Shown here piece by piece: positions 26,640 through 36,243 of a stretch of 37,710 nt of DNA. Under the pieces are notes generated by a model, which worked only from the letters and a program-made list of their open reading frames with translations, was not told the origin of the DNA and ran no database searches. Within the stretch, counting starts at the first letter, position 1. The number at the start of each line of letters is the position of its first letter. A program made the position numbers and the translations under genes. The stretch comes from SAR324 cluster bacterium (GTDB lineage Bacteria; SAR324; NAC60-12): NCBI GenBank assembly GCA_016764995.1, contig JAESQU010000158.1, forward strand, positions 1 to 37,710. Reading direction: 5' to 3'.

Positions 26640-27356
26640 TCAGTATTGAGGAATTGAAGAGTCAACATTGATAGACCAACCCTGTATTCCATCCGATACA
26701 TTGTAAACTTGTTGAAAGCCCTGAGAGGCAAAATATTGAGCGGCTTGTCTGCTACGTTCACCAAGATGGCAATGAAACATCATTACTGTGTTTGGATCCC
26801 ATGAGTCTAATATTTCCTCAACGAGTTCTTGATCCAATAAAACAGAATTTTCCAGACACGCTGTCTCCCGCTCCTCAGGCGTTCTCACATCCAAAATGCG
26901 AATTTCAGGATTTTCTTTCAGAATCGCAGATGCTTCCAGAGCTGCAACTTCCCGTACTTCTGCCGGAGGAGGCGGCGGTGTGATTTCCATGTCCGGAAAT
27001 GCCTCTGTCAACATTTCCCCAAGTTCACCGTTATTTGACATTTCTTCCACAACATCGGAACCGCCGACAAATTCTTTGTTGATATAAAGTTGCGGAATGG
27101 TCTGCCAGTTTGCATAATCCTTGATTCCCTGCCGAATGCTTTCATCAGCAAGCACGTTAAATGATTTAAATGGAACTTTCCAGGAATTCAAAATATCTGT
27201 GACTTTTGCGGAAAATCCACACTGAGGCGATTCCGGGGTTCCTTTCATAAATAAAAATACAGGGTTGACCGAAAGCATTTGCTCAATCTGAGACTGTGGA
27301 TTAGTTCCGGAGCTTCCGGCACTTTCCACATTTGGAGAAATAACTTTGAATTGCAT
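26640..27356 (-). CDS. Monothiol glutaredoxin-rhodanese fusion protein
   Basis: Grx4-type VFLFMKGTPESPQCGFSAKVTDIL...QTIPQLYINKEFVGGSDVVEEM, PPPPP linker, rhodanese IRILDVRTPEER...MMFHCHLGERSRQAAQYFASQGF..VYNVSDGIQGW. Confidence 0.93.
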   Translation of the reverse strand: MQFKVISPNVESAGSSGTNPQSQIEQMLSVNPVFLFMKGTPESPQCGFSAKVTDILNSWKVPFKSFNVLADESIRQGIKDYANWQTIPQLYINKEFVGGSDVVEEMSNNGELGEMLTEAFPDMEITPPPPPAEVREVAALEASAILKENPEIRILDVRTPEERETACLENSVLLDQELVEEILDSWDPNTVMMFHCHLGERSRQAAQYFASQGFQQVYNVSDGIQGWSINVDSSIPQY

Positions 27357-27627
27357 AACGTAACACCGAAAGAACGTTTAAATAAAATAAATAAAAATTG
27401 ACCGTTATTGGGAACACGAATTTTAATTGCGAAAAAACACAGGACGGCTTCCAAAGAAACCGTACTAACTTGGTCCTGATTGAATTATATTACTGGAAAT
27501 GAGTGTGTAAGTCAAACATATCTTGCTCGCGGCACAGTTCAAGCTTAACTTTTGGATTAAACTAAAGTTATGAGATTTGCAATGCTCTAGTTTAATATTT
27601 TTTAGATAGTTTTTGCCTGCTAAATTC

Positions 27628-29247
27628 ATGGACACAACAAGTATCATTCCAATTTCCGGAGACCATTTTGAGGATTTTATGCTCCTCACAAATCCGGAAC
27701 ACAAATCTTCAAGAACGAAGCACGCTTGGGTTGCCTTGCAACAGCAAATTCAGGCACATGTACCAAGTTTAAAAAGGGTTGATCTGAATCGAATTTGCGT
27801 GGACACGATCCGGATGGAATTGCTCATTTTTCCGGTTGTTGAACATTGGAAACGCCCATTGACGTATGCAGAATGGGCTCATATCGACAAGGAGGCAAAA
27901 CATCTTGAGAAGCAAATGGAGAAGATGCGAAAGTTATCCAGCCTTGTCCGCAAAAAAGATCCACTTGCCTTTCCTGATCTTGCGCCATTGTTTAATAAAT
28001 TATTTAAGCAAAACCAGGAGTTGCGTAATAACTGGGATACTTTCAAAGGGGCATGGTCAGATTACAAGAAAGATTGGCAACAATTTCAGACAAAGAAAAA
28101 ACAGTTGCTGAGAAGCAAACAGAAATCTTCCAAATCACAACCGGAACCTTTTCAAAAAGATAGTGCAACTGTTAATGATATTGAAACTCCTGTGTCACCT
28201 CCGATGTTTTCTCGTGACCGCTGGCATGCCCTGCGTATCAGTTCAAAAGCCCTTGAAATAGAAGTTCTGCACCAGTGCCAACGTTTTCGGGATGGAAGCG
28301 GACAGGAACCGGAAGACTTAAATAAAGAGACTCATCCCGGAGTAAAATTTCTTGTGGAAGAACTCCGGAAAATTTATCTTAAAACACATGGTTTTGAGTT
28401 AATTGAAAGAGTAAAATTGGTTCAGCAGCGCAATGATCAACTCATGCAGGAGTTGCAGCCTTTTTTCCCGGAGCCGATTATTTCGGCGGAAATGCGTGCA
28501 GAAACAAAACCAACCACTAAACATCGGCATAATTCCTCAGGCAAAAGAAAAAATGATAAATCTTCTGCAACAAATTTTTTACGGAAAATATTTTTTGGCT
28601 TAATTTTAATTTTTCTGGGCGCGTTTGTAATATTCTTATTACAAAAGCAGGGGACGACTCCAAGAAAAAATATCATCAATCATTTAAAATTTGTACCAAA
28701 AAACAAAACTTTGACCGCAAAAAGCTCGACTGCAAATAAACTTTCTGAGTTAAATATGGATGATATGATGCAGGCATTTGGATCAAACATTCCTGTACAA
28801 GAATCTAATGAGCGTTTGAAAAAAATGGTAACGGCGTCGCCTGAAATTTTGGATAATATTGCCAACAGTATTCTTCAGGAAATTGGTAAAAATACAGTGT
28901 TTGTTTTCTCGGAAGCGCAGACTTTGTTCCTTTTTTGGAAAGGAAAGCTGGAAGAATTTGCCTCTCCTGAAGATTTAAACAAAAAGCTCAAGCAACTTGA
29001 AAAACAATACAAGAATGTTGAATCGCTTTGGAAAAAAATGGGTGACAATGCTCCTGAAAATATAAAAGTGATTCCGGATATTCTCGATGGAAAATCGACT
29101 TATGCCTTGGAAATACTGGATGAAAACGGTGATCCAATGAAAGTTTACATGACAGAAGAAGGAGTCCTCTTGCGCCTGAGTAACGGAAAACTTTTGGATA
29201 AAACACTCACTCCTCAGGAAGCCACTTTGCGAATTTCTGAATTTTAA
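27628..29247 (+). CDS. Uncharacterised protein with one central TM segment and coiled-coil-like regions
   Basis: Long ORF (track start 27613, TTG; ATG 27628). Lys/Glu-rich cytosolic-like N-terminus, TM FLRKIFFGLILIFLGAFVIFLLQ, charged C-terminal domain. No family recognised. Confidence 0.8.
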   Translation: MDTTSIIPISGDHFEDFMLLTNPEHKSSRTKHAWVALQQQIQAHVPSLKRVDLNRICVDTIRMELLIFPVVEHWKRPLTYAEWAHIDKEAKHLEKQMEKMRKLSSLVRKKDPLAFPDLAPLFNKLFKQNQELRNNWDTFKGAWSDYKKDWQQFQTKKKQLLRSKQKSSKSQPEPFQKDSATVNDIETPVSPPMFSRDRWHALRISSKALEIEVLHQCQRFRDGSGQEPEDLNKETHPGVKFLVEELRKIYLKTHGFELIERVKLVQQRNDQLMQELQPFFPEPIISAEMRAETKPTTKHRHNSSGKRKNDKSSATNFLRKIFFGLILIFLGAFVIFLLQKQGTTPRKNIINHLKFVPKNKTLTAKSSTANKLSELNMDDMMQAFGSNIPVQESNERLKKMVTASPEILDNIANSILQEIGKNTVFVFSEAQTLFLFWKGKLEEFASPEDLNKKLKQLEKQYKNVESLWKKMGDNAPENIKVIPDILDGKSTYALEILDENGDPMKVYMTEEGVLLRLSNGKLLDKTLTPQEATLRISEF

Positions 29248-29351: not shown

Positions 29352-30218
29352 TTGAAAATGGAATTTCTAAAATATCATGCTCTCGGCAATGATTATCTCG
29401 TACTCATTTACGAAAATCAGGATTTTCCGGAAGCTGTTCTAACAGAGGAACAAGTCCGTAAAATCTGTCACCGAAATTTTGGTTTAGGCTCAGATGGAAT
29501 TTTAGTCGGCGGCAAAAGCAATTCCGAAAAATACTTCACACTCCGGATCTATAATCCAGACGGAAGCATGGCTGAAAAAAGCGGAAACGGCCTACGCATT
29601 TTTGCCCGTTCGCTTTGGGATCGAAAAATGGTAGCTGAGTCACAGTTTCAAATCATGACATCCGGTGGTCTTGTCAGCGCGCAGGTCGACAGTTCCGGAA
29701 ATTCTGTTACTGTGGAAATGGGGCGTGTTAGTTTTCAAAGTGACCTCATTCCGGTTAGCGGAAAAAGTCGGGAAGTCCTGAACGAAACCTTGGAAATAAA
29801 TGGTGAAAAAATAACAATTTGTGCCGCCACCATTGGAAATCCGCACTGCGTGGTTCTTCACCGAAAAATTTATTCGGAAGAAACCAGACGTCTTGGCCCT
29901 CAGCTTGAAACGCATCCGAATTTTCCAAATCGTACAAATGTTCAGTTTCTGGAAGTACTGAACCGCAACACAATCCGGATTGAAATTTGGGAACGTGGAG
30001 CCGGTTACACTTTGGCTTCCGGAAGCAGCAGTTGTGCTGCGGCAGCCGTTGCGCATCGGTTGGGTTTGTGTGATGATGAAATCAAAGTCTTAATGCCGGG
30101 TGGGAAAATAGAGATCACGATCTCCGAAAATTATAACATCACCATGAGAGGCGCGGTCACTCGAATTGGTAAAATGACGCTTGATTCAGCATGCTTTGAT
30201 TTCGAGATTCCTGCATGA
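29352..30218 (+). CDS. DapF-like (diaminopimelate epimerase superfamily) protein with both catalytic Cys replaced by Ser
   Basis: KYHALGNDYLVL, NFGLGSDGILV, YNPDGSMAEKSGNGLRIFAR, ATIGNPHCVV, NRTNVQFLEVLNRNTIRIEIWERGAGYTLASGSSSCAAAAVAHRLG. Confidence 0.9.
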   Translation: MKMEFLKYHALGNDYLVLIYENQDFPEAVLTEEQVRKICHRNFGLGSDGILVGGKSNSEKYFTLRIYNPDGSMAEKSGNGLRIFARSLWDRKMVAESQFQIMTSGGLVSAQVDSSGNSVTVEMGRVSFQSDLIPVSGKSREVLNETLEINGEKITICAATIGNPHCVVLHRKIYSEETRRLGPQLETHPNFPNRTNVQFLEVLNRNTIRIEIWERGAGYTLASGSSSCAAAAVAHRLGLCDDEIKVLMPGGKIEITISENYNITMRGAVTRIGKMTLDSACFDFEIPA

Positions 30219-30853
30219 TCGAAAGTTTATTGGGAGTTTTTACGGTAGGTTTCCTTTTGGGAGCACCGGCCGGAATTTCTCCGGGTCCAATGTTGGTGCT
30301 GATCATTTCGGAAACATTCCGCCACGGAATCCGCGCAGGCGCAAAAGTCGCTTTTATTCCTCTTTTGACTGATTTGCCGGTTGTTTTAGTTTCCGGATTT
30401 TTATACGCAGAACTCTCAAACATGGATTTTCTGCTGGGTGCGATTTCCTTGTCTGGAGCAGTTTTCCTCACGTATTTGGGAAGCAGAAGTATCAGAGCCG
30501 CCAGCGCCGAAATTCCGGATTTTACCCCCAGGCCGCTCCACCTGAAAGAATTAATGGTCGCAAATCTTCTCAATCCAAACCCATACCTTTTTTGGTTTAC
30601 TGTGGGAGCGCCGCTGATGGTCCGTTCTTTTCAGCAGACTTTAGAAATGGGTGCTGCTTTCCTAATCAGCTTTTATCTTGGTCTGGTTGGAGTCAAATTT
30701 ATGCTGGCAATTGTGGCAGGAAAATCCAGAAGTTTTCTGCAAGGCATTTGGTATCGCCGGATCATGCAGTTTCTTGGTTTGGCGTTAATTGGATTTGCGA
30801 TATTTCTACTTCAAGATGGTCTGAAATTTTTCGGAATTTTGCAGCAAATATAA
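30215..30853 (+). CDS. LysE family amino-acid exporter
   Basis: GFLLGAPAGISPGPMLVLIISETFRHGIRAGAKVAFIPLLTDLPVV; ANLLNPNPYLFWFTVGAPL; overlaps upstream gene by ATGA. Confidence 0.9.
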   Translation: MIESLLGVFTVGFLLGAPAGISPGPMLVLIISETFRHGIRAGAKVAFIPLLTDLPVVLVSGFLYAELSNMDFLLGAISLSGAVFLTYLGSRSIRAASAEIPDFTPRPLHLKELMVANLLNPNPYLFWFTVGAPLMVRSFQQTLEMGAAFLISFYLGLVGVKFMLAIVAGKSRSFLQGIWYRRIMQFLGLALIGFAIFLLQDGLKFFGILQQI

Positions 30854-34609: not shown

Positions 34610-36243
34610 TTAAGTGTCAATTTTGTGATTTCGATATTTGGATTTTAATTTGGTTGTCATTTTCACTGCTAGTTCTTCTCTAAAAACTACAAGCAACAGA
34701 AAATATAAAAAAGCGGAACCTACCAGTAGAGTCAGAAAGACTATCCAGTTATCAAAAAGAAAAGGGCCTTTTTCCCATGATCCGTATCCAGCAGAAAACC
34801 AGGCAAAACCAGCCATGCCAACTGAAGCTAACATATATAAAATAGCTGAGCGCAAGGGCCACCATTTTTTTCGTAATTCCGTTTCTTTCCGCAAAAAGAA
34901 GGTCAACAGTATCCACTGAAACCAAGTTCCTGCGGCCAGTCCCAAAGCAAGACCGAAAATTTCAAGACTTTGGCTCAACCACCAACCTAAAATTCCTGTC
35001 AGCAAAATACTGAAAATAGAAACTTTGACTGGAGTGCGGGTGTCTTTAAGCGAGAAAAATAACGCTGTCTGCAGGCGAATCATCGCCACTGCCGGAATGC
35101 TCAAAGCAAATGCCTGCAGCGTGAGCGCGGTATTTTGAACGTCGCTCCAAGAATATGCGCCATGGAAATAAAGCATTGCGACTATCGGTTCCGCGGCAAT
35201 GGCCAAACCGACACTGGCCGGCACGACAACCAATAAAGTAGTGGACATGGTAAAGCGCAGATTGTCACGAATTTTATTCCAGTTTTCGCTGGCAGTATGT
35301 CGGCTTAATTCCGGAAAGCTCGCAGTGGTTAAAGCAAACGCAAACAGCCCTAATGTCAATTCCGAAAGACGGCTGGCGTTGTAATAATGTGTGACTTGAC
35401 CAGTCGGCATGAAACTGGCGATGTTGCGCAGGACAATGATATTGATTTGATAGACTGCCACACCCAGCAATGACGGTCCAAGCAGTTTCAACAGCCGTTG
35501 AATATTTTCATCATTGAGGAAGAATTGCGGTTTTAAAGCTTGACCGACTTTCCTCAGCGATGGTATTTGAATTATTATTTGCGCGATTCCGCCCAAAATA
35601 ACACCAATTCCGATGCCGATAATAGGCTCATCCAACAGCGGCGAAATTCCAAAAGCGGCAGCGATAATTCCGAAATTTAATAAAATCGGCGCTGCGGCCG
35701 GAGCCGCAAAACGGCCTTCCGCATTCAGAACACCCATCGCCCAGGCGACCAGCGAAACAAAAATCAAGTACGGAAACATGACTCTGGTCAACAGCACTGT
35801 TAACTCAAACTTTTCCGGATTTGAGGCAAAACCTGCCGCAAAAAGAAAAACCAATTGAGAACTGAAAATAATTCCTAAGCCTGTCAGTATGGTGGTTGCG
35901 GCCAGGACGAGACCTAAAGTTTTTGCCGCAAAATCCCTTGCTGCTTGCGGATTTTTACGGTCACGGATTTCTGTGTAGAGAGGCAGGAAAGCCAGAGTCA
36001 TTGAACCCTCGGCAGTCAGGCGGCGCAGAACATTTGGAATGGTGAATGCCTGCACGAAGGCATCCGTAATCCAACCTGCACCAAAAACATGGCAATCACC
36101 AAATCACGTACTGCGCCGAGAATACGCGAAAACAGCGTAAAGATTGTGACCGTCCGCGCGTGTTTAAGGATGCGTCCGGACTCCTCAGGATTTTTTTTCA
36201 AAGGAATGGATGTCAAGTAGTTCAATGTTGACAGAATGGACAA
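34610..36243 (-). pseudogene. murJ: Lipid II flippase MurJ interrupted by an apparent 1-nt frameshift (or sequencing error)
   Basis: N-terminal ORF 36016..36243 (SRILGAVRDLVIAMFL...) and C-terminal ORF 34610..36055 (QAFTIPNVLRRLTAEGSMTLAFLPLYTE...) are consecutive MurJ/MviN segments in different frames; break near A5 run 36083-36087. Confidence 0.85.

Follow-up and report, generated by a model that had tools for sequence, protein, structure and literature searches.

A DapF-like clade with serine at both catalytic cysteine positions is probably a thiol-free DAP epimerase

Introduction

DapF is an enzyme of both cell-wall and lysine biosynthesis, the standard example of racemization catalyzed by a thiolate/thiol pair, and a studied antibacterial target. 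In the Anabaena enzyme, the proximal end of the substrate is contacted by Asn13, by the backbone of residues 76, 77, 225, and 226, and by Thr226, and the distal end by Asn66, Asn164, Asn197, Glu215, and Arg216 (PMC12039745). Cys-to-Ser mutants of PddB, a DapF relative that acts on diaminobutyrate and no longer has the Asn and Arg contacts of the distal end, have less than 0.1% of their activity left, and Cys-to-Ser mutants of M. tuberculosis DapF are cited there as likewise falling below 0.1% (PMC8225329). The same exchange greatly reduces the activity of HisR. Natural serines are found elsewhere in the proline racemase superfamily. Among the hydroxyproline-family proteins, B9JQV3 (Ser93/Cys236) is a 4-hydroxyproline epimerase and B9K4G4 (Ser90/Thr256) performs a dehydration; natural single-serine members work, and an Asn three positions further along places the serine (PMC4113996). 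In addition, chlamydial DapF has a PLP-dependent racemase activity on glutamate (PMC5885031).

Here, we describe a DapF-like clade in which both catalytic cysteines are replaced by serine (Ser/Ser). The clade appears new to the literature searched, where no description was found, including under the motif EKSGNG, most subscription papers lying outside that search; databases would label its members DapF.

Results

The window (the whole stretch of DNA analyzed, 37,710 nucleotides of contig JAESQU010000158.1, assembly GCA_016764995.1, from the metagenome-assembled genome of a marine SAR324 cluster bacterium) contains an open reading frame at 29352-30218 on the forward strand, which we confirmed. 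The original prediction, made from the letters alone, had read it as a DapF-superfamily protein with both catalytic cysteines replaced by serine. The ORF tool starts at TTG 29352; we prefer ATG 29358 as the likely start, and the equivalent methionine begins close relatives. The resulting gene (29358-30218, forward strand) encodes 286 residues, numbered here from that ATG. The protein scores 245.2 bits against the TIGR00652 DapF model (cut-off 114.65), which 12 of 12 clade members tested also match. DapF families are its only matches in NCBIfam and Pfam, placing it by sequence outside the proline racemase (hydroxyproline) subfamily. An AlphaFold2 model of the protein (mean pLDDT 94.2) was compared with known structures using Foldseek, and matched Anabaena DapF (9MRO) with a TM score of 0.90 at 33% identity. 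The best 26 PDB chains are all DapF or O-ureidoserine racemase, and the hydroxyproline enzymes are structural matches at 12-17% identity.

Ser75, encoded by AGC (29580-29582, forward strand), aligns with the catalytic Cys73 of E. coli and H. influenzae DapF, and Ser221, encoded by TCC (30018-30020, forward strand), aligns with the second catalytic cysteine, Cys217 in E. coli. In the model, these serines directly precede helices 76-88 and 222-234, the same helix N-termini at which the catalytic cysteine pair of DapF is found. The protein consequently fails the PROSITE DapF signature, which contains C-(GI)-N-(GA)-x-R, and all 131 clade sequences are Ser/Ser. A catalytic cysteine at a shifted position, which would have refuted the original prediction, was ruled out by alignment and model; the clade-conserved Cys37 (131/131) and Cys164 (128/131) fall where canonical DapF varies. 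Chance or sequencing error was excluded, since the best 80 homologues, from other genomes, are Ser/Ser without exception. The predicted superfamily and double replacement, including both codons, are therefore borne out by the TIGR00652 match, the alignment, the model, and these homologues.

The homologues come from a scan of genome contigs, whose search patterns left out both serine positions and which returned at least 579 confirmed relatives. The best 80 of these are distributed over SAR324, Verrucomicrobiota, Desulfobacterota, Planctomycetota, Cyanobacteria, Chloroflexota, Armatimonadota, and others. In a phylogenetic tree, one branch with a support of 100/100 divides 33 Ser/Ser from 39 Cys/Cys sequences, and the stem of the Ser/Ser clade is 1.33 changes per site long. 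Verrucomicrobiota, cyanobacteria, and an actinobacterial MAG interleave inside the clade, a pattern suggestive of either horizontal transfer or errors in binning; several of the genomes compared are MAGs. No mixed Ser/Cys members were seen with a search pattern that admitted only Ser or Cys, and apparent Cys/Ser mixed sequences turned out to be regular-expression artifacts. A Phycisphaerales DapF (G073:C44) that resembled a selenocysteine or frameshift case proved to have a stretch of N in its assembled sequence. A plasmid search gave DapF-like matches only, all below 60% identity and, among the matches listed, at about 32-36%.

Both serines are invariant in the 131 clade sequences. This set was chosen by its serines, such that the invariance is informative mainly through the 80 of 80 scan matches and the codon evidence. 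Ser75 is encoded by AGY in 100 sequences and by TCN in 31, whereas for Ser221 the numbers are 18 and 113. Passage between AGY and TCN by single-base steps runs through Cys or Thr, and neither was seen at the two positions among the 131 sequences. Invariance despite the use of both codon boxes indicates that, on this codon evidence, Ser75 and Ser221 are themselves under selection.

Residues that contact both ends of DAP in DapF are also retained. These are Asn11 (29388-29390), the proximal amino-group contact; Asn66 (29553-29555; Asn64 in H. influenzae), a distal contact; Asn161 (29838-29840; Asn157) and Asn194 (29937-29939; Asn190), which contact the distal carboxylate; and Glu212-Arg213 (29991-29996; Glu208 and Arg209), which contact the distal amino group and carboxylate, all on the forward strand. 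These residues, and with them Gly76, Asn77, and Gly222, do not vary among the 131 sequences, and position 223 holds Ser in 126 and Thr in 5. The contact set of canonical DapF (Asn11, Asn64, Asn157, Asn190, Glu208, Arg209, and helix ends 74, 75, 218, and 219) is thus found in full, position 219 being Ser or Thr in the clade.

Other residues are fixed in the clade yet unlike DapF. They include, all on the forward strand, Lys74 (29577-29579; 130/131), which adjoins Ser75 and is Met in most canonical DapF; Gln196; Glu209 (29982-29984), which is Arg in 28 of 28 canonical sequences compared; Tyr217 (30006-30008; 131/131), which is Glu, Ile, or Val in most canonical DapF; and Ser224 (30027-30029; 130/131), three residues past Ser221 and Gly in canonical DapF. 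The sole sequence with Met74, from a SAR324 relative, has Val at 209, which hints that Lys74 and Glu209 may pair.

A second, canonical Cys/Cys DapF, which the original prediction had suggested looking for, was found neither in the window's genome (85% complete) nor in the majority of Ser/Ser genomes, among them complete ones; 31 of the 40 Ser/Ser-carrying genomes checked have no other DapF homologue. For a sample of Verrucomicrobiota, proteins were typed by identity to the window protein (at least 47% for Ser/Ser, at most 38% for the rest), with motifs read directly in a subset. The Ser/Ser type occurs in 50 of 241 genomes and is the sole DapF homologue in 47 of these 50. The remaining three have an extra Cys/Cys homologue in which the DAP-binding Arg is replaced by Phe, whereas 172 of the 191 genomes that lack the Ser/Ser type have another DapF (Fisher p about 1e-30, uncorrected for shared ancestry). 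The Ser/Ser and canonical types are mutually exclusive in this sample. The extra homologue (L243, L244, L245) keeps both cysteines and has FEFG in place of WERG, and its substrate may differ. Within SAR324, families f3 and f4 and two f1 genera are Cys/Cys, and the other f1 and f2 genomes read are Ser/Ser. In the two f1 genera, the Ser/Ser type is replaced by a very divergent Cys/Cys DapF with the motif CGTAMSSS or CGTAISSS. Both types are found together in some cyanobacteria, Pseudomonas sp. 21, a gammaproteobacterium, an Armatimonadota genome, and a Planctomycetota genome, where the role of the Ser/Ser protein may differ.

We also sought to place the protein in its pathway. No DAP dehydrogenase scored over the cut-off in 48 genomes, and a bypass through this enzyme was therefore rejected. 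A MurE carrying the meso-DAP motif DNPR occurs in 13 Ser/Ser-only genomes, LysA in 27 of 27 genomes tested (23 over the cut-off), and DapL over the cut-off in 18 Ser/Ser-only genomes, where LL-DAP must therefore be epimerized. The complete Verrucomicrobia genome of IMCC26134 encodes DapB, DapL, MurE with DNPR, and LysA, no DAP dehydrogenase, and a single DapF homologue, of the Ser/Ser type. In relatives such as this one, the Ser/Ser protein occupies the place of the only epimerase linking the synthesis of LL-DAP to the use of meso-DAP. DAP has been detected chemically, its stereoisomers not distinguished, in Opitutus terrae and Lacunisphaera, for which the pathway has been given as DapA-DapB-DapL-DapF (PMC5303756); other Opitutaceae are Ser/Ser, and the link to these two is by family only.

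In the window's own genome (85% complete), we found DapB and LysA, and neither MurE nor DapL over the cut-off. Because SAR324 f1 has no recognizable MurE, only lysine synthesis clearly needs meso-DAP in the window's organism. MurE over the TIGR01085 cut-off is absent from seven f1 genomes, one of them 99% complete, and occurs in the related families f2 and f3. The window's genome encodes MurF and MurJ (L204:1420-2808; window 34610-36055). The same genome encodes a full cyanophycin synthetase (TIGR02068, 1120 bits; L239:773-3577, contig C210), after which comes a 580-residue Mur-ligase-like ORF.

A gene for a LysE-type amino-acid exporter (30215-30853, forward strand) has a start that overlaps the stop of the dapF-like gene. 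This arrangement is confined to two genera, one of SAR324 and one other, and a kynureninase gene then follows in part of the SAR324 genus only. No recurrent neighbor was found in 80 loci. Assignment of function from kynureninase or LysE was accordingly rejected, as neither is conserved as a neighbor outside SAR324, and with it the tryptophan/kynurenine link that had been raised. Upstream of the dapF-like gene, a 544-residue ORF (27613-29247, forward strand) has no Pfam or NCBIfam match and, of the loci compared, occurs in those of SAR324 only. The window also encodes a glutaredoxin fused to a rhodanese domain (26640-27356, reverse strand).

Discussion

Our preferred reading, to which we give a probability of about 0.7, is that the window protein took the place of canonical DapF as a thiol-free DAP epimerase. 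The Ser/Ser gene is usually the only copy and therefore probably does DapF's job; DAP epimerase activity as such is quite likely. Counting in its favor are the sole homologue, mutual exclusion, pathway genes, the DAP measured in Opitutus terrae and Lacunisphaera, DAP contacts, selection on the serines, the low dN/dS, and the superfamily precedents for serine. Counting against it are the losses in Cys-to-Ser mutants, the genomes with both types, the long stem, and the lack of MurE in f1. The original prediction that this is not a standard DAP epimerase thus stands chemically, as the catalytic cysteines are gone, and falls as a claim of non-DAP function. Its suggestion of a different isomerase or dehydratase, or of a binding protein, fares poorly given the invariant DAP contacts and the presence of MurE and LysA, with no DAP dehydrogenase, in relatives.

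In the proposed mechanism, the protein would bind LL-DAP with the usual fold and substrate contacts of DapF, and one alpha-carbon would be inverted between Ser75 and Ser221, located at the N-terminal ends of two helices that oppose each other. The roles of base and acid would be divided between the two serines, with help from the helix dipoles, backbone amides, and the clade-specific Lys74/Glu209, Tyr217, and Ser224. We lean slightly towards Ser75 and Ser221 themselves being the acid/base pair. Such chemistry would be surprising because engineered Cys-to-Ser mutants of enzymes of this kind lose nearly all activity. The broader proposal is of an alpha-epimerase free of cofactor and thiol, in which two helix-end serines invert an unactivated alpha-carbon and which would be the only DAP epimerase of many bacteria in several phyla; we see the chances for and against it as even.

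The Ser/Ser protein could instead bind a DAP-like two-headed diamino diacid and catalyze another reaction or act as a sensor, an unrelated and unrecognized enzyme epimerizing DAP. The loss of both cysteines, read with the mutant literature, fits this explanation, as does the canonical DapF found alongside in cyanobacteria, Pseudomonas sp. 21, and others; the long stem could likewise reflect a change of function. However, this explanation leaves the mutual exclusion in Verrucomicrobiota and SAR324 unexplained and calls for a second, unknown enzyme across several phyla, and no conserved neighbor points to another pathway. We consider it unlikely.

Somewhat less probable again is a DAP epimerase in which another group, such as Tyr217, Lys74, or a bound cofactor, transfers the proton and the serines only position the substrate. 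Tyr217 is invariant and Lys74 nearly so, both lie close to the catalytic positions, and the glutamate racemase activity of chlamydial DapF depends on PLP (PMC5885031). Against this, Lys74 is Met in one SAR324 relative, and both serines are invariant exactly at the catalytic positions with both codon boxes in use. A degenerate or non-functional DapF paralogue, for which cysteine loss is the sole argument, is highly improbable given a median pairwise dN/dS of 0.12 in the window's genus, serines and contacts invariant in 131 sequences, and a gene that is usually the only copy.

If the reading as a thiol-free epimerase is true, a large natural clade doing DapF's step would test the need for the thiol pair. 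Its enzymes would, we infer, resist thiol oxidation and thiol-directed inhibitors, and automatic annotation as DapF would be hiding a catalytically different enzyme. If the protein has some other function, a DAP epimerase awaits discovery in many bacteria.

Compared with known systems, the clade is most like DapF itself (9MRO, E. coli 4IJZ, and H. influenzae 1GQZ), with which it shares the fold, the DAP contacts at both ends, the catalytic helix positions, a score above the TIGR00652 equivalog cut-off, and, in relatives, a place in the lysine and peptidoglycan pathway. It differs in having serine for both catalytic cysteines, in Lys74, Gln196, Glu209, Tyr217, and Ser224, and in an identity of about 33%. 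The C73S and C217S forms of H. influenzae DapF (PDB 2Q9H and 2Q9J) each have serine at one of the same two positions and match the model of the window protein with TM scores of 0.84 and 0.83; these are engineered single mutants, whereas the clade has a natural double replacement. B9JQV3 and B9K4G4 of the proline racemase superfamily resemble the clade in having a natural serine at a catalytic cysteine position. They belong to another subfamily with another substrate, and in them the serine faces a cysteine or one residue alone is catalytic; Ser224, three residues past Ser221, is a loose parallel to the Asn that places serine in single-serine members. PddB, HisR, and O-ureidoserine racemase share the fold and two-residue logic of the clade but keep both cysteines. 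PddB lacks the distal DAP contacts, and the Ser/Ser clade is its opposite in keeping all of them.
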